64,000 nucleotides of DNA from Limosilactobacillus oris (GTDB lineage Bacteria > Bacillota > Bacilli > Lactobacillales > Lactobacillaceae). The position numbers were made by a program, and so were the translations under genes. The notes below the pieces were generated by a model that worked only from the letters and a program-made list of their open reading frames with translations, did not search any database and was not told where the DNA came from. The stretch is from assembly GCF_025311495.1 (NCBI RefSeq), contig NZ_CP104398.1, forward strand, positions 1,860,001 to 1,924,000, read 5' to 3'. Shown in pieces: positions 5,843 through 20,753 of the stretch. The stretch's first letter is position 1; each line of letters opens with the position of its first letter.

Positions 5843-5857
5843 GAGGAAGTGCACAGC

Positions 5858-6856
5858 ATGAGAGATATTGATAAAATTTTGGGAGCTTTGTATGGACAGG
5901 CGATTGGCGATGCAATGGGGATGCCAACCGAGCTCTGGCCAATTCAGCAAATTCAAGCCAAGTTTGGCAAGCACATTACGACTTTTTTAGATGGTACTGA
6001 AGACAACGACATTGCGATTAACTTCAAAGCAGGCGAGTATACCGACGATACTAACCAGGCGTTTGCAATCCTGGATGCGCTCATTGAAACTAACTGGCAA
6101 CCTGATACCCGAGTAATCGTTAAGCACATTATGAAATGGGCTGACCAGGTCGGCGCCTGGACCAATAATATTCTTGGACCAAGCAGTAAGGCAGCTCTGA
6201 CTCTGGTTAAGGAGGGAAAAAATCCATCCGAGGTTACCAAATCGGCCCTTACAAATGGCTGTGGGATGCGGATTTCACCAATTGGAACTCTGTATGCTCC
6301 TGATCAATTGGATGAGCTGGTCAAGATGGTTTATGAAGTTACAAAGATTACACACTCAAGCGATGTTGCCATTAGCGGGGCTGCAATGGTTGCTGGTGCG
6401 GTAACGGCTGCCTTAGCAGATTATGATTGGGACAGCATTATTGCTTACGCAGAAAGAGCAAACGATGCTGGCTTCAAGCTCGGGGCGCCAACCTGGGCGG
6501 CCCATAACAAGGAACGGCTTGAAGTTGGCCTGCGGCTCGCTGAAAAATACGCTGGCGACGACGAAGCCTTTAGTCAGGCAATCTATAACACGGTGGGGAC
6601 AGGGACGATGGTTTCCGAAAGCATTCCAGCAGCCGTTGCAATTGCTTATTACGCTCGAGACGTAAAAAAGAGCGCGATTATCTGTACTAATTTAGGTGGT
6701 GACACGGACACGATAGGAGCCATGGCAACTGCGATTTGCGGAGCCAAAGTTGGTGCTCAGGCAATTCCAGCTGACTGGAAGAATTTAATTGACCACAAGA
6801 ATCCACAACATAATATTAAGGAGTTTGCGCAACAGATTAGCACTTTCAATGGCTAG
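5858..6856 (+). CDS. ADP-ribosylglycohydrolase-family enzyme
   Basis: A 332-residue cytosolic enzyme of the ARH/DraG fold. Both metal-binding motifs are intact: EYTDDTNQ near residue 60 and GGDTDTIGA near residue 280, the pair that coordinates two Mg ions for cleavage of an N-glycosidic bond to ribose. The start is at ATG 5858 after GAGGAAG; an upstream GTG at 5849 is less likely. Located 15 bases after the GntR gene and 21 bases before a nucleobase-type permease, it more likely hydrolyses a small ribosylated metabolite than a modified protein. The arrangement recalls E. coli yegU in yegTUV/yegW, whose substrate is also unsettled. Confidence 0.88.
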   Translation: MRDIDKILGALYGQAIGDAMGMPTELWPIQQIQAKFGKHITTFLDGTEDNDIAINFKAGEYTDDTNQAFAILDALIETNWQPDTRVIVKHIMKWADQVGAWTNNILGPSSKAALTLVKEGKNPSEVTKSALTNGCGMRISPIGTLYAPDQLDELVKMVYEVTKITHSSDVAISGAAMVAGAVTAALADYDWDSIIAYAERANDAGFKLGAPTWAAHNKERLEVGLRLAEKYAGDDEAFSQAIYNTVGTGTMVSESIPAAVAIAYYARDVKKSAIICTNLGGDTDTIGAMATAICGAKVGAQAIPADWKNLIDHKNPQHNIKEFAQQISTFNG

Positions 6857-6877
6857 AAAATAATGAGGTGATTTCTC

Positions 6878-8257
6878 ATGAATAATGACTTTGTTAAAGT
6901 TCCAGAAGAAGATAAGACATTAAGTCCGGGGAAATTGTTTTACAATTGGTTTGCAGCTAATATCGGGATAATGGGTTTTGTTTATGGTGCAATTATTGTC
7001 AGCTATCGTTTGTCATTTTGGCAATCCATTACGGCAGCGTTAATTGGGGCGTTGACTTTTGCAATTCCCGGTTGGGTAGCGATGATTGGCCGGCGTGAGG
7101 GGGTAACTACCTTCAAGATGAGTCGTGCGGCGTTTGGAATTTACGGTAATAAGATTCCGAACTTTATGGCCTGGCTCAACATGGTCGGCTGGCTGGCCGT
7201 TAATGTGATTACTGGGACGCTGTTATTTTCGGCGATGCTGAAGACCATTCGAGTACCCCAAACTGGGTTTACGAAGCTGATTTGCCTGGTAATATTTGCC
7301 GGCCTGGTTATTTTATCGGGGATCTTTAAGGAAGATACCCTGGCTAAAATTCAAACCTGGCTGAGCTGGATCTTTGGCGCCCTGACCTTAGTGATGCTGA
7401 TTATGTTCTTAGTGAACGCTAATTGGGATGAAGCATTTTCGATGAAATCCGGTAGTTGGGTGACCGGCTGGCTACCAGCGGTTGCCTTCGTTGCGGCGGG
7501 GTCGAGTATTTCCTGGTCAATGGCTGCCGCTGACTGGGGAGCCTATGTTCGCCCTGACACCAAGCTATCGGCCACCTTTTGGAATACTACGATGGGGGCC
7601 GCAACGCCACTGTTCATTTTAATGGCCGGCGGAATCCTGTTAAGTACGATTTCACCTAGTTTGGCAACCGCAAGCGACCCTTATCAGGTGATGTATAACG
7701 CGATTCCAAGCTGGTTTGGTTTTCTGTACTTCCTAGTTGCGGCCGGTGGAATCATTCCACAATGCCTGGTATCTTTCAGGTCCGCGCGAATCAACCTAGC
7801 GACGATTGGGATTGAAGTTACCCAGAAGACTTCCCTGATAATCCATGCTTTAATTATTGTTGTCATTTCTGTTTACGTTTTATTTATCTCCGGTAACTTC
7901 CTAACCAACTTTGAGCTCTTCTTGAACTTCCTGGGAATTTGCTTGGCCTCCTGGGTAGCCATCTTCCTGGTGGATAACGTTATTTACCGGCGGCAGGGCT
8001 ACTCTGTCTTTTTGATGAAGGAAGATTCGCCGGTCCGTTATAACTGGCCGGGAATTATTTCCTGGGTTATTGCAACGGTCTTTGGCTTTCTCTTTACGTC
8101 AAATGCTGTTTATAGGGGCCCGTTTGCCCACGGAATCTTTGAAAATAACAGCAGTTTAGCGGTCTTTGTTTCGGGAATCGCCGCCATTGTCGTGATGTTT
8201 GTGCTTTCGTTGTTTGTAAAGAATGGCAAGAAGACTGGGGATGAGCAGCATGGCTAG
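6878..8257 (+). CDS. NCS1-family permease (purine/cytosine type)
   Basis: A 459-residue integral membrane protein with about 12 hydrophobic helices. The N-terminal VPEEDKTLSPGKLFYNWFAANIGIMGFVYGA region and SWSMAAADWGAYVRPDTK are characteristic of the nucleobase:cation symporter-1 (codB-like) family. It would import the substrate processed by the flanking glycohydrolase and kinase. Its end overlaps the kinase start by 8 bases. Which nucleobase or nucleoside is carried cannot be read from the sequence. Confidence 0.88.
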   Translation: MNNDFVKVPEEDKTLSPGKLFYNWFAANIGIMGFVYGAIIVSYRLSFWQSITAALIGALTFAIPGWVAMIGRREGVTTFKMSRAAFGIYGNKIPNFMAWLNMVGWLAVNVITGTLLFSAMLKTIRVPQTGFTKLICLVIFAGLVILSGIFKEDTLAKIQTWLSWIFGALTLVMLIMFLVNANWDEAFSMKSGSWVTGWLPAVAFVAAGSSISWSMAAADWGAYVRPDTKLSATFWNTTMGAATPLFILMAGGILLSTISPSLATASDPYQVMYNAIPSWFGFLYFLVAAGGIIPQCLVSFRSARINLATIGIEVTQKTSLIIHALIIVVISVYVLFISGNFLTNFELFLNFLGICLASWVAIFLVDNVIYRRQGYSVFLMKEDSPVRYNWPGIISWVIATVFGFLFTSNAVYRGPFAHGIFENNSSLAVFVSGIAAIVVMFVLSLFVKNGKKTGDEQHG

Positions 8258-9131
8258 CAAAAGTCTGATCCTGGGGGCGGCGTTTGTGGATGTCATTATG
8301 GATATTGCACAGATGCCAGAATCTGGCGGTGACGCTACCGCTAAGTTCAAGTCCAATCACGTTGGCGGCTGTGCTTTCAATGTTTACGGAGCAATTAGCC
8401 ATTATTTGGGGAAGAACAGTACTGACTTACTGGTTCCCGTTGGCAACGGGCAGTATGCGGAGATTGTCCGACAAACGTTGAAGGAAAAAGGAATTCCGGT
8501 TATTTTGCATGAAAATTCGTTTGATAATGGCTGGGATCTGTGCCTGGTTGAGCCTTCGGGAGAGCGGACATTTATTACCGTTCCGGGAATTGAACAGCAC
8601 TGGGATGAGTCGTGGTTTAAAGAGATTAATTTAAGCGATTACGACTACTTCTACATCAGCGGGTACGAAATGGAAGACCCCCGGGCAGCACGGGTAATCC
8701 TAAAGTGGTTGAGTGGACGGAAATCGGGGGCACGAATCCTGTTCGATGCTTCACCCCGGATTAGTCATATCGATTCCGCAACTGTGTCCGCGATTTTAAA
8801 GGCGGAGACGATTGTTAACGCGAATGAAGACGAAATCAGTTACCTGAGTAGTAAAAGAACCCTTGCTGAGCAGGCAGCTGATATTTACCGGAAGACTAAG
8901 ACGCCTGTCATTGTTACTCTTGGAGCACGAGGAACATACCTTTATGACGCGGGTGGCGGACGGTCGATTCCTGCTAAGCAGGTTAAGGTCGTTAACACGA
9001 TTGGCGCTGGAGATACGCATTGTGGTGGTGTATTGGCCGGCCTTCAGGAAGGAATGGCGATTGATGAAGCGGTAAAGCTCGGCAATCAGTTATCCGCAGA
9101 GGTGATTCAACAGGAAAGTGGTAGTTTATAA
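8250..9131 (+). CDS. PfkB-family carbohydrate/nucleoside kinase
   Basis: A 293-residue kinase of the ribokinase/PfkB family. The second signature NTIGAGDTHCGG near residue 250 carries the catalytic Asp; the N-terminal GG of NHVGGCAFNVYGA is the substrate-binding motif; VNANEDEISYL is the expected mid-domain pattern. The start was set at ATG 8250, overlapping the permease stop by 8 bases (translational coupling), with GGGG upstream; ATG 8241 is an alternative. It probably phosphorylates the ribose or nucleoside freed by the upstream glycohydrolase. It corresponds in position to YegV. Confidence 0.9.
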   Translation: MASKSLILGAAFVDVIMDIAQMPESGGDATAKFKSNHVGGCAFNVYGAISHYLGKNSTDLLVPVGNGQYAEIVRQTLKEKGIPVILHENSFDNGWDLCLVEPSGERTFITVPGIEQHWDESWFKEINLSDYDYFYISGYEMEDPRAARVILKWLSGRKSGARILFDASPRISHIDSATVSAILKAETIVNANEDEISYLSSKRTLAEQAADIYRKTKTPVIVTLGARGTYLYDAGGGRSIPAKQVKVVNTIGAGDTHCGGVLAGLQEGMAIDEAVKLGNQLSAEVIQQESGSL

Positions 9132-9149
9132 AGTAGAATTGCGATACTA

Positions 9150-9195
9150 AAGCAGCTCGTACCTGAGTTTTGGTGCGGGCTACTTGCTTTTAGGG
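9150..9195 (+). terminator. Imperfect hairpin after the kinase
   Basis: AAGCAGCTCGTACC and GGTGCGGGCTACTTGC can pair imperfectly and are followed by TTTTA. This is a weak terminator candidate for the GntR operon. Confidence 0.4.
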
Positions 9196-9276
9196 GTTAA
9201 AACCCACCGGTTTATTAGGTTCTAATTATTTGTTACAATCAAGGCGATTGGATTAGGAATAAAGGAGTTGTTCACG

Positions 9277-10131
9277 ATGAAGAAGACGATTGATGTACCA
9301 GCAGTTCGTGACGGTTTGTGGATGGATACCGATATTACCTACGCCCAGGTCCCAGGTTGGCTAGGCAACACTACCCGTGACCTGAAGCTGACCGTGATTT
9401 GCCACTTTCAAACGGACGATGATAAACGCTACCCAGTAATCTTTTGGTTCGCCGGTGGTGGCTGGATGGACACTGACAACAACGTCCACCTGCCGGACCT
9501 GGTTGACTTGGCCCACGCCGGCTACATAGTGGTCGGCGTCGAATACCGCGACAGCAACAAGGTCCAATTTCCCGGCCAACTGGAGGACGCTAAGGCGGCG
9601 GTTCGCTATCTGCGGGCGAATGCCGACCGTTTCCAGGCCGATCCAGACCGCTTTATCGCGATGGGGGAGTCTGCCGGCGGGCACCTGGCCAGCATGTTAG
9701 GGGTGACAAATGGCCACAAAGAATTTGACCGGGGCGCTCACCTTGATGTTTCAAGTGCTGTTCAGGCGGCGGTCCCGTTTTACGGGGTTGTGGATCCGCT
9801 GAGTGCTAAGCAGGGCAGTGTGACGGACGACTTCGACTTCGTTTACCGGAACCTACTGGGGGCGGAACCCGAAGCGGCACCAGAGTTGGACCGGGTGGCG
9901 AACCCGTTGACCTACATCGACCAGAATACCGTGCCATTCCTGATTTTCCACGGCAGTGAGGATAAGGTGGTGCCGGTGCAGGACAGTGAGCGTCTTTACG
10001 ATGAATTAGCTGAGAAGCACGTCCCGGCCGATCTGTACATCCTCAAAGGGGCTGAGCACATGGACGTGAAGTTTTTGCAGCCGCAGGTCTTTAAGATTAT
10101 CGAGGACTTCTTGGCAGAACATTTGAAGTAG
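9277..10131 (+). CDS. Alpha/beta-hydrolase esterase
   Basis: A 284-residue cytosolic hydrolase with an oxyanion motif FAGGGW, nucleophile elbow GESAGGH (Ser near residue 135), a DP/ED segment HGSEDKVVP carrying the acid, and a final GAEHMD carrying the catalytic His. These match the BD-FAE/HSL-like carboxylesterases that deacylate small esters such as acetylated or feruloylated sugars. The start at ATG 9277 follows AAGGAG. It is a single gene with no visible operon partner; the LacI gene begins about 100 bases later with its own promoter. Confidence 0.88.
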   Translation: MKKTIDVPAVRDGLWMDTDITYAQVPGWLGNTTRDLKLTVICHFQTDDDKRYPVIFWFAGGGWMDTDNNVHLPDLVDLAHAGYIVVGVEYRDSNKVQFPGQLEDAKAAVRYLRANADRFQADPDRFIAMGESAGGHLASMLGVTNGHKEFDRGAHLDVSSAVQAAVPFYGVVDPLSAKQGSVTDDFDFVYRNLLGAEPEAAPELDRVANPLTYIDQNTVPFLIFHGSEDKVVPVQDSERLYDELAEKHVPADLYILKGAEHMDVKFLQPQVFKIIEDFLAEHLK

Positions 10132-10194: not shown

Positions 10195-10218
10195 TTACTG
10201 GTATAATTAAACCAGTAA
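10195..10218 (+). promoter_or_regulatory. Inverted repeat around the lacI-like promoter
   Basis: Half-sites TTACTGGT and ACCAGTAA are perfect inverted repeats separated by 8 bases; the -10 TATAAT (10202-10207) lies between them. A regulator bound here would block RNA polymerase, so autoregulation is likely. The motif is unlike the palindrome at 11414, so the two sites may bind different proteins. Confidence 0.6.
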
Positions 10219-10239
10219 CTAGTATTGGACTGAATTTCG

Positions 10240-11262
10240 ATGAAATATACAATGAAAGATATTGCGCAGGCCGCGGGGGTGTCATTGAGTACGGTTTCTT
10301 TAGTGCTCAATGACCGCCCGGTCCGCGTCAGCGACAAGACCAGGAAGCGGATTAAGCAGATTGCGGCAGAAAACCACTATCAGCCTAATTCCGCGGCGGT
10401 TTCTTTAAGCCGGCACGTTAGCTATAACATTGGCTTGATTGTTCCCGACATTACCAATCCCTTTTTTGCCCAGATGACACGGGAAATCAATGAACAATTA
10501 GCGCAGCATGGCTACTCTACCTTATTTGCTGATAGCAATAATTCGGCAGAAAAGGAAAGACATATTCTTCACAACATGGTATCGCGAGGAGTTGATGGTA
10601 TCCTGCTAGTGCCGTCCAACGAATTTTTCTACCAAGACATGGAGAAGCTGCAAAAGCAGATTGATGAGACCGGGAAGCCGTTCGTGCTAGTTAACGCAAC
10701 TGCGGATAAATTAAGGGTTTGCTCAGTCAATTTTGATAACTTTGAGGGGGCCGCTCTCGCCACCCAGGAGCTGATTGACCATGGTCACCATAATATCGCT
10801 TTTATCCAAGGAAAAACTCAATATGTCAACGCACCAGAGCGTTACCAAGGTTATCGTCAGACGCTAGAAAAGAATGGCTTGACGTTTCATACCGACTTCC
10901 TTTATGAAGGCGACTATTCGATTGAAAGTGGGTACCAGGCAGCCAGCTCCATTATTAATAATAATGAAGTCACCGCTGTCTTGAGCTCCAGTGATATGAT
11001 GCTCTTTGGAATTATCAAGTGGGCTAATGAACACCAGGTAAACGCCTTTAACCGGTTCTCAATGATTGGTTTTGATAATGATCCTTACGACGTGATTACT
11101 CAGTATCCATTGACCACAGTTGACCAGCAAATTTCCAAAATGGCTAGTGAGAGTGTCGGAGCTCTCTTAAAAATGATTGTTGCTAAAAAAATTACGCACC
11201 AGAAATTAATCGTAACTCCCGAGTTAATCAGGCGTCAGTCCGTGCGAATGATCAAAAAATAA
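10240..11262 (+). CDS. LacI-family transcriptional regulator
   Basis: A 340-residue regulator. The N-terminal HTH (MKYTMKDIAQAAGVSLSTVS, residues 1-20) and hinge helix (about 45-58) are followed by a periplasmic-binding-protein-like core with GLIVPDITNPFFAQM at about residue 68 and the late motif SMIGFDNDPY. It lies directly upstream of, and in line with, a three-gene operon whose promoter region has a perfect LacI-type palindrome (11414-11431), so it is the most likely local regulator of that operon. Its effector is unknown. Confidence 0.93.
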   Translation: MKYTMKDIAQAAGVSLSTVSLVLNDRPVRVSDKTRKRIKQIAAENHYQPNSAAVSLSRHVSYNIGLIVPDITNPFFAQMTREINEQLAQHGYSTLFADSNNSAEKERHILHNMVSRGVDGILLVPSNEFFYQDMEKLQKQIDETGKPFVLVNATADKLRVCSVNFDNFEGAALATQELIDHGHHNIAFIQGKTQYVNAPERYQGYRQTLEKNGLTFHTDFLYEGDYSIESGYQAASSIINNNEVTAVLSSSDMMLFGIIKWANEHQVNAFNRFSMIGFDNDPYDVITQYPLTTVDQQISKMASESVGALLKMIVAKKITHQKLIVTPELIRRQSVRMIKK

Positions 11263-11275
11263 TCCTTTTGTTCGA

Positions 11276-11289
11276 TAAAAGCGTTTACA
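11276..11289 (+). promoter_or_regulatory. cre-like element
   Basis: TAAAAGCGTTTACA fits the CcpA consensus TGNAANCGNTNNCA at all fixed positions but one. It sits in the 219-base gap before the amidotransferase-like gene, suggesting carbon-catabolite control. A LacI paralogue could also bind it. Confidence 0.5.
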
Positions 11290-11413
11290 TTTCGTGATTA
11301 TGTGTTATATTTAAGACGAAGTTTGCTAATGATTCTTTTAATTTGAATGTCACTTAATATCAAAATTGGTCGATTTTAAATACATTCGGATTAAAAGATT
11401 TTTTTTAGCAATT

Positions 11414-11431
11414 TGATAAAGCGCTTTATCA
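11414..11431 (+). promoter_or_regulatory. Perfect 18-bp LacI-type operator
   Basis: TGATAAAGCGCTTTATCA is a perfect palindrome with the central CG typical of LacI/GalR operators, 51 bases before the start of the amidotransferase-like gene. It is probably bound by the LacI regulator encoded just upstream. Confidence 0.7.
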
Positions 11432-11481
11432 CTTCAAGAATCATTTACTTACTTCAATTTTAGCTTGAAGGAGGGCTTTAG

Positions 11482-12222
11482 ATGGCAAACGTTTTGATTG
11501 CAGGCGAATCATGGATTTCTTCGACGATTGAATATAAGGGTTATGACTCCTTTACCAGTACCAAACTTGAAAATGGGTGTGCGCACCTCATTAAAGAACT
11601 AGAAGCACATGGTCATTCAGTGACGCACTTATTTGCCCATGATGTTCCTGAACTATTTCCGTGGTCTGACAAGGAATTGGATGAATATGATGTAGTTATT
11701 CTCTCGGATATAGGTGCTAATTCTATTTTGCTTCCCGATAAGGTTTTTAATAAGGGAGAAGCAACCGTTAACCGACTTGAACTATTAAAAAGCTGGGTCT
11801 TAAACGGTGGGGCCCTGATGATGGCAGGTGGCTACCTATCATTTGCCGGCTTTGAGGGGAAAGCGCACTATCATGGGACCGCGGTAGAAGATGTTCTGCC
11901 GGTCGATATTCTTCCGTATGATGATCGGCGAGAAGTTCCACAAGGACTGCTTCCGCAGATTACTAAGACTAACCCAATTACTGAAAAGTTGGGCAAGTTC
12001 CCGCCAATTCTTGGTTATCAGTTAGCCACCCCTAAGGAAGGGAGTGAAGTTTTACTTACTGTGGATGATAATCCGTTGTTAATTACCGCAAGTTTTGGAA
12101 AAGGCAGGTCATTGGCCTATATGAGCGACATCGGTCCTCACTGGGCGTCAAATAAATTTATGGATTGGAATAATTACGGGGAGTTTTACTCCCGTTGTAT
12201 TAGCTGGCTTTCTAATAACTAG
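11482..12222 (+). CDS. Putative glutamine-amidotransferase-like protein
   Basis: A 246-residue protein of the class I amidotransferase-like fold (the PF07090/STM3548 type). Recognisable patterns are VLIAGESW at the N terminus, LKSWVLNGGALMMAGGYLSF in the middle and YHGTAVEDVLPVDI. No clear Cys-His-Glu glutaminase triad is visible, in keeping with this family's non-glutaminase relatives. AAGGAGGG precedes the ATG. It opens an operon with a DMT transporter (26-base gap) and an Ntn amidase. A catabolic role on an amide is possible, but its own chemistry is unknown. Confidence 0.7.
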   Translation: MANVLIAGESWISSTIEYKGYDSFTSTKLENGCAHLIKELEAHGHSVTHLFAHDVPELFPWSDKELDEYDVVILSDIGANSILLPDKVFNKGEATVNRLELLKSWVLNGGALMMAGGYLSFAGFEGKAHYHGTAVEDVLPVDILPYDDRREVPQGLLPQITKTNPITEKLGKFPPILGYQLATPKEGSEVLLTVDDNPLLITASFGKGRSLAYMSDIGPHWASNKFMDWNNYGEFYSRCISWLSNN

Positions 12223-12248
12223 GTCTGAAATGGGAAGAAGGTTTAAAA

Positions 12249-13226
12249 ATGAATTCCTCAAACAATAGGGTAAAGAAGGACATCGTGATTCCCTTACTTG
12301 TACTAGCAACTATTTTTGCTGGAATGCTCTCACCGTTACAATCGGCTGTAAATGGTCAGCTCGGTAACACTTTGCATGGCGATGGAAATGCGGCGGCAGT
12401 CATTTCGTTTGGCTCGGGTTTAGTCGTGATGACGGTTATCATCCTCGCCCGGCATTCGACCAGGGCGCAGTTTGCCTCTATTCCGCGGAAAATGCGCGCT
12501 CATGATCTTCCGTGGTGGAACTGGATTGCTGGAATTTGCGGAGCAATGGTAGTCTTTTCTGAAGGGGCATCTGCTTCAGTCCTTGGTGTTGCCACCTTTC
12601 AAACGACGTTAATTTCCGGGCTGGTGATTTCCGGATTACTTTGTGACCGTTTTGGAATTGGGGTGGATGTAAAACAGCCGTTTAATTTTGCTCGGATCCT
12701 GGGCGCGGTATGCGCGATTGCTGCGACGATCTTGGTTGTTTCGCCAAACTGGTCAGCTCCGAAAGTAATCGGTCTTGCCGTTTTGCCGTTCTTAGCGGGA
12801 ATCCTTGCTGGTTGGCAACCGGCGGGTAATTCCGCAATTGCCAAGGAAACTGGTTCAATGCTAGTGTCGATTACTTGGAATTTCATCGTTGGCTTTTCTA
12901 TTCTGACGGTTATTTTGCTGGTCAGAATTGGGATGGGCCAAGTCAGTTTCGAGCTTCCCCACGTTTGGTGGATGTACTTGGGCGGACCCCTGGGGCTTTT
13001 GTCGATTGCCTTGATGGCATTGCTTGTGCGTGGACTGGGACTGCTTCTACTGGGCTTGGCTTCGACTGCTGGTCAGCTGATTGGTTCAGTCTTGATGGAT
13101 TTGCTGATTCCCCAACTTGGTGCTCATGTGTATATGGTAACTGTATTGGGAGCGTTAGTAGCCCTGATTGGTGCCGGAATTGCAATGATCCCTTCGCAAA
13201 AAGAAGCGGAATCTACGAATAATTAA
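12249..13226 (+). CDS. DMT-superfamily transporter (DUF606/YdcZ type)
   Basis: A 325-residue membrane protein with about ten hydrophobic helices arranged as two similar halves (residues about 15-165 and 175-320), each starting with a motif like SPLQSAVNGQLG or AGWQPAGNSAIAKETGS. This matches fused DUF606 proteins of the drug/metabolite transporter superfamily. It lies between an amidotransferase-like gene and an amidase gene, 14 bases before the latter, so it probably carries the operon's substrate or product across the membrane. Confidence 0.82.
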   Translation: MNSSNNRVKKDIVIPLLVLATIFAGMLSPLQSAVNGQLGNTLHGDGNAAAVISFGSGLVVMTVIILARHSTRAQFASIPRKMRAHDLPWWNWIAGICGAMVVFSEGASASVLGVATFQTTLISGLVISGLLCDRFGIGVDVKQPFNFARILGAVCAIAATILVVSPNWSAPKVIGLAVLPFLAGILAGWQPAGNSAIAKETGSMLVSITWNFIVGFSILTVILLVRIGMGQVSFELPHVWWMYLGGPLGLLSIALMALLVRGLGLLLLGLASTAGQLIGSVLMDLLIPQLGAHVYMVTVLGALVALIGAGIAMIPSQKEAESTNN

Positions 13227-13240
13227 GGAGGTGGCTGCAG

Positions 13241-14296
13241 ATGGCTTGTACCGGAATAGAATTAGTTAGCAAGCAGGGGAATCCCTTTTGGGGACGAACC
13301 CAGGATTTTGAACAGCATTTTGAATATTCAGGAGTCAAGATTCCCAAGGGTTACAATTTCTCATCAATGTCTTCGCCTTTTATTACTCAGCAAGCGGTGA
13401 TGGGAATTGTCTGGGCGAAGGACTTGCATAAGTCCCCCGTCTTATTGGATGGAATTAATGAAAGTGGTATTTGTGGCGGTTCATTTTATTTTGATCATTT
13501 CTATCGCTATGTATCTACGAAAGAAGTTAAGGATAGTGGCAAGACGCCGATCCGGGGCGAGGAAATTTGTAGTTGGATTTTAACTCATTACGGCAGTTTA
13601 GATGAGATTAAAGAAAAATTGAATCAGGACGTGGGGGTTACGAATGAAGCTGGACCAATGATGGGGATGTCGGTACCTCAGCATTGTGTCTTTGTTGACA
13701 AAACTGGTCGTTCAATCGTTGTGGAGCCTTCTGTCCCCAATGGATTTAAGATTTACGAGAATAGACTGGGCGTGTTCACGAATGCGCCGACCTTTGATTG
13801 GCAGATTAATAATGTCAAACTATGGTTAGAACGCACAACTGGGCGTAGCTATGATTACAAGATGGATGAAGAAATTGAGCCAATTGCAATGGATGAGGCG
13901 ACTAGCGGCATGGTTGGCATTCCAGCGGATTATAAACCAGAGTCACGCTTTCTGCGGGCAGCGTTTGCTAAATTACTTTCTCCGACGGTAAGTGATAACG
14001 AAGCGCTTAACCAAATTTTTCAATTGATCACAACGGTTAACACACCGAAAGGCTCGCTAAGAATAGGCGGTAATGAGAAAACAATTTATGCCTGGACGCA
14101 GTATACTTCTGGCTATGATATTCGGCACAAAAAGCTATTTGCCTTCACCTACGATAACCGTAATTTGCGAGAACTAGATTGGGGAGATACCGCAGATTGG
14201 GGTAATCAGCTTAGCTTCTTCTCGTTTATTGCTCCACAAAAGACGGTGCCATTTATCGCAAAGAATAGCTGGAAAGAAGGTGAAAACACCCTTTAA
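13241..14296 (+). CDS. Choloylglycine-hydrolase-family amidase (linear amide C-N hydrolase)
   Basis: A 351-residue Ntn-type hydrolase related to bile-salt hydrolases and penicillin V acylases. It begins Met-Ala-Cys-Thr-Gly; the nucleophile would be Cys3, whereas bile-salt hydrolases start Met-Cys. Family residues follow: FWGRTQDFE near residue 20 (Arg and Asp) and GINESGICGGSF near residue 70 (Asn). The GGCTGCAG leader with AAGGAGGTGG is a strong ribosome site. Because Cys3 needs removal of two residues, activation may differ from that of bile-salt hydrolases. The LacI-controlled setting with a transporter argues for a dedicated substrate rather than bile salts; the substrate is unknown. Confidence 0.83.
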   Translation: MACTGIELVSKQGNPFWGRTQDFEQHFEYSGVKIPKGYNFSSMSSPFITQQAVMGIVWAKDLHKSPVLLDGINESGICGGSFYFDHFYRYVSTKEVKDSGKTPIRGEEICSWILTHYGSLDEIKEKLNQDVGVTNEAGPMMGMSVPQHCVFVDKTGRSIVVEPSVPNGFKIYENRLGVFTNAPTFDWQINNVKLWLERTTGRSYDYKMDEEIEPIAMDEATSGMVGIPADYKPESRFLRAAFAKLLSPTVSDNEALNQIFQLITTVNTPKGSLRIGGNEKTIYAWTQYTSGYDIRHKKLFAFTYDNRNLRELDWGDTADWGNQLSFFSFIAPQKTVPFIAKNSWKEGENTL

Positions 14297-14318: not shown

Positions 14319-14367
14319 AACACGCCCAAGCGAGATTATTACCCCTTAAATCTCGCTTGGGCGTGTT
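14319..14367. terminator. Long hairpin after the amidase operon
   Basis: A 19-bp perfect stem (AACACGCCCAAGCGAGATT and its complement) with an 11-base loop. The plus strand lacks a T run afterwards; the minus strand has TTTATTTTA, so it resembles a minus-strand terminator but can still fold in the operon mRNA. Confidence 0.7.
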
Positions 14368-15551: not shown

Positions 15552-18076
15552 ATGAAGGAACATAAGAAACTGCATAAGCATGGAAAATTGTGGGTCACGG
15601 CCACGATTTTCGCCGTGACGTTGTGAATCCCAGTCGGTACCAGTCAAGCTCAGGCTGCCACTGACCCGGCAACGATCATGCCAGCTGTCCAGCAAGTCGG
15701 TCAAGCTACTACGGGTGGGGGTCAAAATGGGAGGGAGACCAACCAGCAACCTTCTGCCACTACACCTCAGCGGGATGCTAACCAGGGTACTGCTGTAGCC
15801 AGCCAGGCAACTACTGACCAGGCTAACATCAACCCGAATGACCATGCAACTATGGCTGGCTAGACCAGACGAAGCTGGACTCAGATGGTAGCCTGAACGT
15901 CAGTGGCTGGCACGCAACGAATGAATCGCAAGGCCGGCAGTACCACTACATCATTGCCTTTGATCCAATTCACCGGACGGAAATCGCACGGCAAGGTGTC
16001 ACCGAAACCGCTACCAAGCGTCCGGATGTTGCTCAAGTCCACCCGGTTGCTGGTGCTGCGCAGTCCGGCTTTAACGCCAGCTTTGATCTTAGCCAGCAAC
16101 TGGCAAATCTTAGTCAAGTTCAAATTATCAGTCGGTATACTGATGATCCTACTGGGAACGGTAATGCGGCGGACTACTGGTTTGCGCCAATCGTAATTGA
16201 CCGTGCCAATCGCGCGAGCCTTGATTTAGCTACCGCAATTGACGGCCAGCTAGTAGTAGCTGGTTGGCATGCTAGCAACGCGGCCGCGGGCAAGAATCAC
16301 CACTACGTGATCTTCTTTGACCGGACGATCAACAGTGAAATCGGGCGGGGTGAGGTCAAACCCATTGCACGTCCGGACGTCGCCAGAGCCGTTCCCGACG
16401 TTTACCATGCCGACCAATCTGGTTTTACAGCTAAAATTGCGTTAAATAAAGTTAACCTGAACCACCAGATTCAGATCATCAGCCGCTATAGTGCTAGTGC
16501 GGATGGCAACAGCGACTACCTGGATTACTGGTTTAACTCAATTACCGGTGCTAACCAAGTCAACCAGGGCTGGTTGGATAGCTTCAACCTCAGTGACGGT
16601 CAACGCTTGAGCTTTGCTGGTTGGCACGCTAGCGGTTTAGCACCGTTTGAGAATAACCACTTTGGAATCCTTTACGATTTGACGGCGAACTCTCAGGTCG
16701 CCGTTGTCAAGACAAGTCTGGCCAATCGCCCAGATATTGCCCGCTTGTTGCCAAACGTTCCAGAATCTGGACAGGCTGGCTTTAGCGGTCAAATTGATTT
16801 GGCGGGGCTAAACCTGCAACCTGGTCACCAGTACACGCTCGTCAGTCGGTATTCCACCAGTAACGACGGCAACGGTGGCGGTGGGCAGTATAGTGACTAC
16901 TGGTCACCGGCTTTTACGTTGAACCAACACGCTTTTTATATTGATGGCCTCCAGATGACCGAGCAGGGGCTGCGGGTCAATGGTTGGCTCGTCAGTGACC
17001 AATCGCTTACGAAGACTCATCCATACCTCATTGTCCTGAACAACGGCAAGGAAGTTAACCGGGCGGCGCTCACCTTCACCAGTCGGCCTGATGTTGCTAA
17101 GGCTTATGGTCAGGTTTATAACAGTGCTAACAGCGGCTTTTCGACCTTAGTCAAGTTAGACCCGGCCCAAGTCAATGGCAATATCCAGCTGATTCTTCGC
17201 TTCTCAGATGATCCAGCTGGTAATGGCAACTACGACGACCAGTACAGTCAAACTTATGCTTCGAACGCTGGCAATTTTGACGCCATCCAAGTTAATGCTA
17301 CCGGTATTTACGTCAGTGGTTGGCACGCTAGCAATCAGGCTGTTGGTAAGCCGTATCAGTATCTGATTTTTGTCGACCAAAATGGTCATGAATTATACCG
17401 GCAGGAGGTCTTAGACAAAAACCGCACCCGGGGAGATGTTGCCAAGGCAGAGCCGGCAATCTACAACAGTGGCAAGTCTGGTTACCAGCTTGGCTTCAAT
17501 ATTCCAAACCAGCTCAACCACCACATGGTGCGGATTATCCACCGGATTACCGACGACAAATACGGGAACGGCAACGCGGTCGACGAATGGTCCGGCTTAG
17601 TTTCCATCAATGCGATGCGGACACCGATCGACTACCGACAGCCGTCTGAATACTTTGACTACCCGAACTTGAGCCAGCTCAACAACTTCTGGATCCATGT
17701 CCGGATCGGCCAAAACCGGGTCTACCTGATGAACAACAATGACGTGGTTTACACAATGTACTGTACCGCTGGCTACTACCAAAACGGGGTCAGCACCACG
17801 CCCCTTGGAACCTACTACATCCAGGCCGAGCGGGGCAACAGCTTCTACAACGGTGCCTTGGGTGAGGGGGCTAACTACTGGACGTCCTTCCTTAACCACG
17901 GGGAATACCTCTTCCACACGGTTCCGACTGACCGCTGGGGCAACTACAAACCATACGAAGCCTCACAACTGGGCATCAACCAAGGTTCCCACGGCTGTAT
18001 CCGGCTCTCTGTTCCCGATGCCTACTGGATTATGCACAACGTTCCAACTGGCACCCGGGTTGTTATTGATAATTAA
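15552..18076 (+). pseudogene. Secreted L,D-transpeptidase with surface repeats, broken
   Basis: Starts MKEHKKLHKHGKLW, a KxYKxGKxW-type export signal, but the frame meets TGA at 15624-15626 inside the signal hydrophobic core. Reading through it, a second lesion near 15845 shifts the frame: adding one G in the CATGCAAC stretch would give D-H-G-N-Y-G-W-L-D, matching the repeat start in the gene at 18309. From 15854 the frame is open to 18076: four to five ~110-residue repeats (GWHASN, RPDVA, SGF, SRY, DYW landmarks), then a YkuD L,D-transpeptidase domain with SHGCIRLS (catalytic Cys). Product if intact: a ~840-residue wall enzyme forming 3-3 peptidoglycan cross-links or attaching proteins. Sequencing errors could mimic either lesion. 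Confidence 0.85.
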
Positions 18077-18099
18077 TTACTTTTACAGAGAGAGTGAAA

Positions 18100-18140
18100 A
18101 AAGCACCGAAAATCCACGCTGATTTTCGGTGCTTGTCTTT
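18100..18140 (+). terminator. Terminator
   Basis: AAGCACCGAAAATC / GATTTTCGGTGCTT, a perfect 14-bp stem with a six-base loop, then GTCTTTT. It ends the transpeptidase transcript. Confidence 0.85.
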
Positions 18141-18308
18141 TCGCCGCGCAGCCTATTTGGGAGTGGTCCAGTGTTTGAATTGCCAGCCTGCGACTACGCT
18201 GGGGTATCATTATCCATAAAACGGCTAAGAGACGGAGGTTATTCCCACTCCCATTTCGCTTGAACTCATAGTAAAATATTACAAGATTCACATGAGGGGG
18301 AGCATTTA

Positions 18309-20753
18309 ATGAACACTACGGTTGCTAAACTAATCGCTACGGCGGCGGTTACAACCTTTGGCTTGACGCTGATCACCACGGGCGCTCGGGCCGATGATGT
18401 TACCGTCAGTACGACAGCCAACCAGCCAACTACTATCCAGTCCACAACAACTAATCTAAATCTCTATTCCAAAAACTTGTCCCGGGTCCAGGCTACCCAG
18501 GCAATTAACTTTCCGGCCGGCTACACCCTCGACGCAGTTCGTAATGTCAATAGCCAGGCGGCGGCCAATGCCTTCGAGCAGACCGCCCAGCAGGGAATTT
18601 ACAATAATAACTACCAGTCCAACCGACTCGCGGCCACCCAGGCGGTTGACCTAAACAGCCTGACCGCTGACCAGGTCAGCCAGCTTAACCAGTACGGGCT
18701 TAACCTTGTCAACCGGGCCCGGGCTGAATTTGGCCTAGAGCCATTTACCCAGGATGCCGGAACCATTAACCAGGTACGAGCAATGGCCCTTGAGTACCAG
18801 TTTCGTGACGAGTCCCTCCTCAATGGTCACTGGCACGATTACGAAATCCTGCAGGGTCAGTCCGAAAACATCGCGGCCCATCAGGTTTATGTGGATAATA
18901 TTCCAAACCTGGCGGCGCGACCATTTGCCAGCGCGGTGGGAACCGACTTCGTGAACGTCAATGCAGTGCCGCTATTTACCATTAAGACGATGGATGACCT
19001 GCAAGCCTGTGTTTACTATGGCTTGATGGGGATGTTCTTCAACGACGCTGGCGACCTCTTCGGCCACGCCCAGAACTTCCTGACGGTCCAGCAGCCAATC
19101 ACGACCCTGGCCCTGTACCCATCCCTGACCTACGCGACGGGGAGGGGAACATGGTCAAACGGGATCCCATTTACTTTCCGGCTGGAAAATGTCGATATGC
19201 ACTATATCTGGACGACCGGGACCAACTATAACCGGGATGACTTCAGTAACCAGGGAACGGTCACTCCAGACTGGGACCGGACTGATAATGGCAACTACGC
19301 CTACTTGGATGGAGCCTTTATCACCAGTTCTGGTCAGCTCGTGGCGACTGGCTGGCACGCGACCAATGCCTCCCAGGGGCGCCCTTACCACTACCTGATT
19401 GCACTCGACCAGAATGGACACGAGCTTCAGCGGGTGATCACCAACCGGGTTGACCGTCCCGATGTTCAGCGAGCTCATAACGTCTATGACGCGGCCAAGG
19501 CAGGTTTTTCAACCAAGCTTGATCTGGCAAACCAGCTTGCTAATGTGACCAGTATCCGCTTGATCAGCCGGTATAGTGGTAGCGCGGATGGCAACAGCGA
19601 TTACGTAGATTATTGGTTTGCGCCGCTCTCGGTGGACCAGGGGAACTATGCCAATCTGGATGGTGCCACGGTGGTGGGTGACCAGCTCCAGCTCAGCGGT
19701 TGGCACGCCAGCAACCAAGCGTCTGGAAAGGCGTACCACTACATCATTATTTTGAATAATGGTCGCGAAGTGGGGCGGCGGTTGGTGTCAGCAGGTACCA
19801 ACCGGCCGGACGTGGCTAACGTTTACGGCCACATCGCTGGCGCTGGGCAGTCCGGCTTTAGTGTGAACTTTGACTTGGCCGCACTCAACTTTAATCAGCG
19901 GCTCCAGGTATTGAGTCGCTACACAGACGACCCCGCCGGCAACGGCAACGCTGTCGACTACTGGTTTACGCCGCTGACGGATGGCCAGTACAGTAACCAG
20001 GCTTACCTGGATAACTTTACAGTCGGCAATGGACGGCTGAAAATTGCTGGTTGGCACGCGAACGGGGTCAGCCGGTTTGAACAGCACCACTTCATCATCC
20101 TGTTCGATGTGACGGTGAACCGTCAGGTAGAATCGTACCTGGTTATCGCTGCCGCCCGGCCCGATGTTCAACGAGCTTACCCGGGAGTTGCCAACGCCGG
20201 GCAGTCTGGCTTTGAGCTAACCTTAAACCTGACGGAACTCAACCTGATTCCCGGGCACCGCTACGTGATTGTCAGCCGCTATTCTAGTAGTGCTGACGGC
20301 AACGGGAATGGTAACGGCAGCCAGTACACCGACTACTGGTTCACACCCCAGAAATTATTGTCACAGAAGGAAGCAGGGTACGTAGACCAGCACGTCCTTC
20401 GTCAGGCTAATGACCAAGCTAAGTTGACAGTTGCTGGCTGGCGGGTCACTAACTTGGCTCGTGGCTACCACACCCTGATCCTGTTCGATAACACGCGGGG
20501 CCGGGAGCTGGCCCGGCAGACGATTGCCGACACGCCAACAGGTTTGGCCCGGCCAGATATCATGCGGTTGTACGGACGGCAGTATCTGAATGCTGCGCAC
20601 GCCGGCTTTACAGGAACGATAACTTTACCAGTAGGGTGGCCGCAGGGGGATGACTATACGATAATTAGCCGTTATACCCCGACCCCCGATGCAAACCGTG
20701 ACTACGTGGATGTTTTCTACCACTTGGGAAGCTTACAATTTGAACAACTTTAA
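18309..20753 (+). CDS. Secreted CAP-domain protein with surface repeats
   Basis: An 814-residue exported protein. Signal peptide 1-29 (cleavage near ARA|DD). Residues about 110-290 hold a CAP/SCP-type domain (LVNRARAEFGLEPF, GHWHDYEILQGQSENIA, FGHAQNFL). Five ~110-residue repeats follow from about 330 (landmarks YLDG, GWHA(S/T)N, YHY(L/I)I, RPDV, SGF, SRY(S/T), DYWF). No LPXTG, LysM or lipobox is seen, so attachment would have to come from the repeats themselves, or the protein is released. GGGGAG precedes the ATG. The same repeats occupy the broken gene just upstream, so one probably arose by duplication and domain swap. Function unknown; a role in wall binding is my inference. Confidence 0.8.
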   Translation: MNTTVAKLIATAAVTTFGLTLITTGARADDVTVSTTANQPTTIQSTTTNLNLYSKNLSRVQATQAINFPAGYTLDAVRNVNSQAAANAFEQTAQQGIYNNNYQSNRLAATQAVDLNSLTADQVSQLNQYGLNLVNRARAEFGLEPFTQDAGTINQVRAMALEYQFRDESLLNGHWHDYEILQGQSENIAAHQVYVDNIPNLAARPFASAVGTDFVNVNAVPLFTIKTMDDLQACVYYGLMGMFFNDAGDLFGHAQNFLTVQQPITTLALYPSLTYATGRGTWSNGIPFTFRLENVDMHYIWTTGTNYNRDDFSNQGTVTPDWDRTDNGNYAYLDGAFITSSGQLVATGWHATNASQGRPYHYLIALDQNGHELQRVITNRVDRPDVQRAHNVYDAAKAGFSTKLDLANQLANVTSIRLISRYSGSADGNSDYVDYWFAPLSVDQGNYANLDGATVVGDQLQLSGWHASNQASGKAYHYIIILNNGREVGRRLVSAGTNRPDVANVYGHIAGAGQSGFSVNFDLAALNFNQRLQVLSRYTDDPAGNGNAVDYWFTPLTDGQYSNQAYLDNFTVGNGRLKIAGWHANGVSRFEQHHFIILFDVTVNRQVESYLVIAAARPDVQRAYPGVANAGQSGFELTLNLTELNLIPGHRYVIVSRYSSSADGNGNGNGSQYTDYWFTPQKLLSQKEAGYVDQHVLRQANDQAKLTVAGWRVTNLARGYHTLILFDNTRGRELARQTIADTPTGLARPDIMRLYGRQYLNAAHAGFTGTITLPVGWPQGDDYTIISRYTPTPDANRDYVDVFYHLGSLQFEQL

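Follow-up and report, generated by a model that had tools for sequence, protein, structure and literature searches.

The closest described relative of the operon considered here is the Salmonella rikA locus, STM3547-STM3550. As PMC13432705 describes it, this cluster follows the gene order of our operon, with a PF07090-type protein, then a DMT transporter, then a hydrolase, and also encodes RikA, a kinase that phosphorylates ribose; the substrate of the cluster is called unknown there. Our operon lies within a 64,000-nucleotide stretch of Limosilactobacillus oris DNA (the window) from a host genome of 2.0 Mb in a single contig. Likened to it by description, the Salmonella locus differs in carrying a PTE-family hydrolase in place of a CBAH-family one and in keeping the ribose kinase within the cluster. 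A PF07090 gene adjoining a YdcZ-type DMT gene, as in rikA-type loci, is found in the window operon, and a PTE and a PfkB ribose kinase are absent from it.

A sequence-only reading had taken the operon for the best candidate in the window for an undescribed metabolic system. In the literature searched, outside which most subscription journals lie, we found no paper on the CBAH form or on the wider pattern described below, and PMC13432705 was the sole description of a related cluster. That related Salmonella locus had been overlooked, as had PF07090 loci elsewhere in Bacillota and those relatives, from Actinomycetota and Pseudomonadota, in which PTE takes the place of CBAH and ribose-type enzymes are encoded nearby. 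We see an even chance that the operon is LacI-repressed and imports and hydrolyses an acylated, probably ribose-linked compound, as one member of a widespread PF07090 set that is itself uncharacterised.

Results

The operon consists of four co-directional open reading frames spanning 10240-14296, whose Pfam families agree with the earlier description of a LacI regulator followed by three genes:

10240-11262, + strand: LacI-family regulator, 340 aa (Pfam PF00356, 7.7e-18; Peripla_BP_4, 2.4e-30)
11482-12222, + strand: PF07090 'GATase1_like' protein, 246 aa (Pfam, 3.5e-85)
12249-13226, + strand: DMT_YdcZ transporter, 325 aa (Pfam PF04657, 1.5e-44)
13241-14296, + strand: CBAH-family Ntn hydrolase, 351 aa, N-terminus M-A-C (Pfam PF02275, 2.2e-54)

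The PF07090 and YdcZ genes are 26 bp apart, and the YdcZ and CBAH genes 14 bp. The best NCBIfam model for the regulator is RbsR, at 239 bits against a cut-off of 382. All four proteins are 97-99% identical to their counterparts in L. oris DSM 4864 (locus L054), and the ratio of nonsynonymous to synonymous substitution rates (dN/dS) between the window and L. oris is 0.06-0.12 for every gene; all four are under purifying selection in this comparison.

Two queries point to the same carriers. PF07090 was found in 9 of 301 Lactobacillaceae genomes (E <= 0.001) and, among the 15 listed genomes of the window's genus, only in the window's own. The operon's CBAH protein, searched at E <= 1e-60, hit the same nine of those 301 genomes, a co-occurrence with a chance probability of 2e-17 if genomes were independent, which they are not; across 398 Bacillota genomes the same search hit the window's own only. 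In all eight other Lactobacillaceae PF07090 loci (part of the 14 named Lactobacillaceae loci treated below) the four genes lie side by side, lacI being divergent in three of the loci; YdcZ is 75-80% identical across these loci, and the flanking genes vary. Judged from these genomes, LacI-PF07090-YdcZ-CBAH is a real conserved unit whose linkage exceeds chance. The sequence-only reading is upheld in its LacI-linked block, which combines a transporter with an amide hydrolase of the Ntn type.

To place this unit among its relatives, named genomes were scanned with a PF07090 alignment, a scan reliant on two short peptide patterns, and the best 80 of 92 relatives were kept (14 loci from Lactobacillaceae, 3 from Bifidobacterium and 63 from other Actinomycetota). 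Genes within 6.5 kb of PF07090 were counted as neighbours when tblastn (1e-8) recognised them; the reference set was limited and partly drawn from the same loci, which leaves other gene families invisible. Ten representative neighbours were checked in Pfam, giving PTE as PF02126, PfkB, Peripla_BP_4, BPD_transp_2, IU_nuc_hydro and M20. A LacI match was present in 68/80 loci, and two places in the set varied. The transporter was YdcZ in 48/80 loci and an ABC component in 27/80, with both together in 0/80, and the hydrolase was PTE in 53/80 and CBAH in 17/80. Where YdcZ was present, the next recognised gene on the same strand within 700 bp was PTE in 31 of 48 loci and CBAH in 17. Ribokinase-like PfkB kinases (45/80), M20 (29/80) and nucleoside hydrolases (21/80) recurred as further neighbours.

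Two kinds of cluster resemble the window's. In 31 named Actinomycetota loci, the arrangement LacI / PF07090-(PfkB)-YdcZ-PTE-(PfkB) has the same core and order as the window operon but differs in having PTE in the CBAH slot, with PfkB near in 24/31 and M20 in 11/31. The ABC-type clusters (binding protein-ATPase-permease-PTE-PF07090-nucleoside hydrolase-PfkB-M20), mostly with LacI, likewise combine PF07090 with an importer and a hydrolase, but they have an ABC importer for YdcZ and contain the nucleoside hydrolase counted above. Because YdcZ and ABC genes never occur together in the 80 loci, the pattern suggests that import falls to YdcZ, which stands in for the ABC importers.

The direction of transport matters, since a rival account assigns the operon to detoxification or signal quenching, with YdcZ as exporter and the hydrolase inactivating toxic amides or lactones, among which beta-lactams, acyl-homoserine lactones and plant compounds come into question. 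The Pfam entry for PF04657 speaks of a putative exporter, enzymes acting on compounds of these kinds are known in both the PTE and the CBAH family, the hydrolase would be an acylase here and an esterase- or lactonase-like PTE elsewhere, and the distribution across Lactobacillaceae is patchy. Against this, ABC genes with binding proteins replace the absent YdcZ, and the kinase, nucleoside hydrolase and LacI neighbours indicate catabolism. We consider detoxification or quenching unlikely, though with a real share of the probability, and favour import and catabolism.

The history of the hydrolase slot was examined in a maximum-likelihood tree, rooted at midpoint, of 96 PF07090 proteins (the window, the 80 named loci, 12 Bacillota loci and 3 plasmid loci). 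The 18 CBAH rows form one clade with support of 100/99, a single change is recovered in 100% of 200 bootstrap trees, and the sister group has PTE or none, as have the groups branching just outside it. PTE was probably replaced by CBAH once, an event that would fall in the ancestor of the Bifidobacterium-Lactobacillaceae branch; its direction, from PTE to CBAH, is something we infer, because the root was placed at midpoint. Since the Bifidobacterium rows branch first within the CBAH clade and the Lactobacillaceae make up one branch, the tree further suggests that the Lactobacillaceae form was transferred from an actinobacterial donor. For several of the other rows, branches are long and placement is uncertain.

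What chemistry could two unrelated hydrolases share? The closest solved protein to the PTE of the Streptomyces cluster is Pmi1525 of Proteus (410 bits); the phosphotriesterase-related enzyme PTER belongs to PF02126. Metal-stimulated esterase activity is reported for Pmi1525 (PMC5341072), and PTER is described as hydrolysing N-acetyltaurine and N-acetyl-beta-alanine (PMC11374699, PMC13311154). Given these esterase and amidase activities, both hydrolase types, PTE and CBAH, can fit an acyl bond. Pmi1525, as that closest solved relative, could also be taken to indicate a phosphonate or phosphate ester pathway, after its reported methylphosphonate esterase activity; PMC5341072 cites for Pmi1525 a paper whose title names a methylphosphonate esterase. 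We noticed no phosphonate gene among the annotations of the 11 plasmids, although no search was aimed at such genes. CBAH enzymes are amide hydrolases, and a swap between PTE and CBAH would make little sense in a phosphonate pathway, which leaves that explanation very improbable and an acyl bond the preferred target.

The presence of a CBAH gene raises the further question of whether the operon hydrolase is simply a bile salt hydrolase (BSH) or penicillin V amidase whose neighbours are accidental. It is a member of PF02275 (185.7 bits, gathering cut-off 20.4), and the five common catalytic residues C3, R19, D22, N181 and R236 (residue list of PMC6100381) are kept in the window protein and in 17/17 relatives. 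PMC6100381, a survey of Lactobacillaceae BSH, assigns CBAH proteins with Tyr82 to BSH subtypes C and E, whose activity is lower, and lists several carriers of the cassette, L. oris and L. brevis among them, as BSH-rich. However, the window protein scores 169.6 bits against the BSH model NF038245, below its curated cut-off of 350, and 144 bits against the YxeI-type penicillin V amidase model NF058572, whose cut-off is 600. Site 82, a column set by an alignment in which the BSH 2bjf has Asn and the penicillin V acylase 3pva has Tyr, is occupied by Tyr in the window protein (Tyr83 there) and in 17/17 relatives; Asn/Gln82, tied to high BSH activity in the same survey, is absent from all of them. 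Of the three further CBAH genes in the genome, that at L001 reaches 448.1 bits on the BSH model, above the cut-off, and has Asn at this site. The operon protein thus shares with bile salt hydrolases and penicillin V acylases its family and catalytic residues, and with 3pva its Tyr, but falls below both curated cut-offs and is locked to its operon, in the same 9 of 301 genomes as PF07090. The curated scores and site 82 disfavour a BSH or penicillin V amidase identity, and with it the ordinary bile salt hydrolase that had been named as one outcome at odds with the sequence-only reading; we rate this explanation as improbable and retain a pathway hydrolase.

The PF07090 protein had been read as amidotransferase-like, and a true glutamine amidotransferase would give ammonia to a biosynthetic step. 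That reading draws on names, in Pfam and in record annotation. The solved relatives 2gk3 (presumably Salmonella STM3548) and 3soz (STM1381) are both named just as cytoplasmic proteins. With the place of the nucleophile elbow inferred from the motif GGYLSF and compared with GxCxG, the expected catalytic Cys is replaced in all 96 homologues, by Tyr in 93 and Trp in 3. No column of the alignment has a conserved Cys, the best holding one in 58/96. In contrast to this absence, Lys19, Asp76, Asp216, His220 and Trp221 are invariant where aligned among the 96 and are also found in an archaeal member outside that set. Because it has invariant residues but no conserved Cys, the protein is probably an enzyme, but other than a class I amidotransferase. 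Residue conservation disfavours glutamine amidotransferase function to the point where we regard it as extremely improbable, and this part of the sequence-only reading is not supported.

Outside the named loci the theme widens and loosens. PF07090 matched in 60 of 398 Bacillota genomes, from which, apart from the window, 12 loci of full or nearly full length were taken, partial matches in long open reading frames being left out. By the same tblastn within 6.5 kb, M20 lies near PF07090 in 11 of these 12 loci outside Lactobacillaceae and a nucleoside hydrolase in 6, and PTE, CBAH and YdcZ in none. Among plasmids, 193 records had a PF07090 match and 11 were read. A Streptomyces plasmid carries LacI / PF07090-DMT-PTE with M20; four alphaproteobacterial loci have LacI-ABC-PTE-PF07090 with ribokinase or PfkB and BtpA, and TenA in three; a Pantoea locus has PTE, M20 and PfkB; and in a Raoultella locus a nitrilase-family gene adjoins PF07090. 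The E. coli plasmid locus (L162), PfkB-PF07090-YdcZ-PTE, has the rikA-type make-up, with 68-70% identity to the nearest reference for the YdcZ-type protein and 60% for PTE. The TenA (thiamin-type), nicotinate phosphoribosyltransferase (NAD-type) and BtpA neighbours present in some of these plasmid loci suggest several possible substrates and settle none. On these comparisons the gene-set theme is broad, not universal.

Some individual loci deserve mention. Seven Propionibacteriaceae PF07090 loci are without PTE, CBAH and M20, with ribose-type ABC genes near some, and a gene at L074:6143-6712, in a Propionibacteriaceae locus, resembles ribose-5-phosphate isomerase B by eye. At L014:80-3414, ~460 bp past CBAH, four genes resemble riboflavin synthesis genes, also by eye. 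The PF07090 match at L142 and the YdcZ match at L162 are each split in two, and these copies may be broken.

The noncoding sequence around the four genes contains the following elements:

10195-10218: inverted repeat TTACTGGT-N8-ACCAGTAA, without a central CG, upstream of lacI, read from sequence
11276-11289, + strand: cre-like TAAAAGCGTTTACA, read from sequence
11284-11311: promoter-like TTTACA-16-TATATT, its -35 overlapping the cre-like TAAAAGCGTTTACA
11415-11430: perfect 16-bp operator-like palindrome GATAAAGCGCTTTATC, between lacI and the PF07090 gene
14319-14336 and 14350-14367: arms of a perfect 18-bp inverted repeat past CBAH, read from sequence

The perfect LacI-type palindrome and the cre-like site that had been reported upstream of the three genes are both present. 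The palindrome GATAAAGCGCTTTATC is the sole site in the 2.0-Mb genome at <=2 mismatches, and a wider LacI regulon was rejected on this ground. Six more sites occur at 3 mismatches; one of them (genome 588748-588763) lies ~150 bp upstream of a ribokinase match, but it carries no weight because the pattern gave 7 forward matches against 4 for a reversed-pattern control. Relatives were searched over 450 bp upstream of PF07090 for palindromes with a central CG and at least 7/8 paired positions. Palindromes of the same form were found in 12/14 named Lactobacillaceae loci, nine fitting GATAAAsCGsTTTAnC and three being variants; within this distance L059 has a dissimilar palindrome, L066 has none, and the form is absent from all three Bifidobacterium loci. 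The cre-like site, a candidate for CcpA control, is one mismatch from the cre consensus. The repeat at 10195-10218 is a possible autoregulatory site, and that at 14319-14367 a possible transcript end, which has no T run on its 3' side and was not called by the terminator scan. Across the stretch, promoter-like matches (6 found, 7.9 expected) and terminator-like matches (4 found, 4.5 expected) were no commoner than in shuffled sequence.

Just upstream, 5849-9131 encodes in a row an ADP-ribosylglycohydrolase, an NCS1 nucleobase-type permease and a PfkB kinase, genes that look like an operon of their own for the salvage of nucleosides or ribose and are present in L. oris L054 too. The PfkB gene (8223-9131), which precedes lacI in this separate set, scores 98.5 bits against the ribokinase cut-off of 299.65. 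A BD-FAE-type alpha/beta hydrolase is encoded at 9268-10131; its L054 copy is matched by two consecutive open reading frames that tblastn merges into one place, and may be broken. The ADP-ribosylglycohydrolase, NCS1, PfkB and esterase genes (5849-10131) were rejected as part of the system, since only one of the 17 named CBAH loci has the set, namely L054 of L. oris, which is nearly identical. Downstream, 16307-20753 encodes two large proteins with repeated 'GWHA...RPDV' modules, the first of which ends C-terminally in a GSHGCIR motif, presumably typical of L,D-transpeptidases.

Discussion

How might the four genes work together? In the mechanism we propose, LacI would repress the operon, YdcZ would import an acylated compound, and the CBAH Ntn hydrolase would cut its acyl bond, most likely an amide, with the PF07090 protein acting on the same compound or its product. 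The core of the widespread set would be PF07090 with an importer and a hydrolase, and its recurring partners ribokinase-like kinases, nucleoside hydrolases and M20 deacylases. Because PfkB kinases and nucleoside hydrolases recur in relatives and RikA phosphorylates ribose, the compound is probably ribose-linked, an N-acylated nucleoside and a ribosylamide being two examples; N-acylated nucleosides such as N4-acetylcytidine are a guess in keeping with these parts. Ribokinases and nucleoside hydrolases from other places in the genome, in which we found two ribokinases over the cut-off and three nucleoside hydrolases, would then deal with the ribose.

Several observations weigh against this proposal, in addition to the Pfam description of YdcZ as an exporter. 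In the 17 CBAH loci, PfkB is near in one (L054, in the upstream set), M20 in one and nucleoside hydrolase in none; the ribose link is therefore borrowed from relatives. Even there, the two neighbour kinases tested scored 252 and 278 bits against the ribokinase cut-off of 299.65, the two neighbour nucleoside hydrolases were nearest to uridine/pyrimidine-type models and below those models' cut-offs, and YdcZ loci are without a nearby nucleoside hydrolase except L120, where it lies ~6 kb off. The authors of the RikA work themselves allow (PMC13432705) that the ribose activity may be off-target. The gene set is also incomplete in places: neither YdcZ nor an ABC transporter was found in 5/80 loci, CBAH, PTE and M20 were all missing from 10/80, and 3/11 plasmid loci (Haladaptatus, a Ti plasmid and Rhodococcus) lacked the set, the Rhodococcus locus having LacI and PfkB and no recognised acyl hydrolase alongside. 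Finally, the 80 loci are mutually related and represent the best 80 of 92 found via two short peptide patterns, and the nesting of the CBAH clade among PTE rows depends on midpoint rooting.

More broadly, we tentatively hypothesize, as a possibility we hold with less than even confidence, that PF07090 marks a multi-phylum catabolic system for acylated ribosides (such as N-acylated nucleosides, e.g. N4-acetylcytidine), in which YdcZ and ABC are interchangeable as importers, and PTE, CBAH, M20 and perhaps nitrilase as acyl hydrolases. The window operon would be its Bifidobacterium-Lactobacillaceae form, and the 'bile salt hydrolase' of that operon a deacylase of the pathway. Genes of food and gut lactobacilli that are likely to be annotated as bile salt hydrolases would then move from bile metabolism to an orphan pathway. 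Moreover, finding a metal-dependent PTE and an unrelated Ntn hydrolase in one slot narrows the substrate to an acyl amide or ester, and orphan loci of the rikA type would therefore become directly testable.

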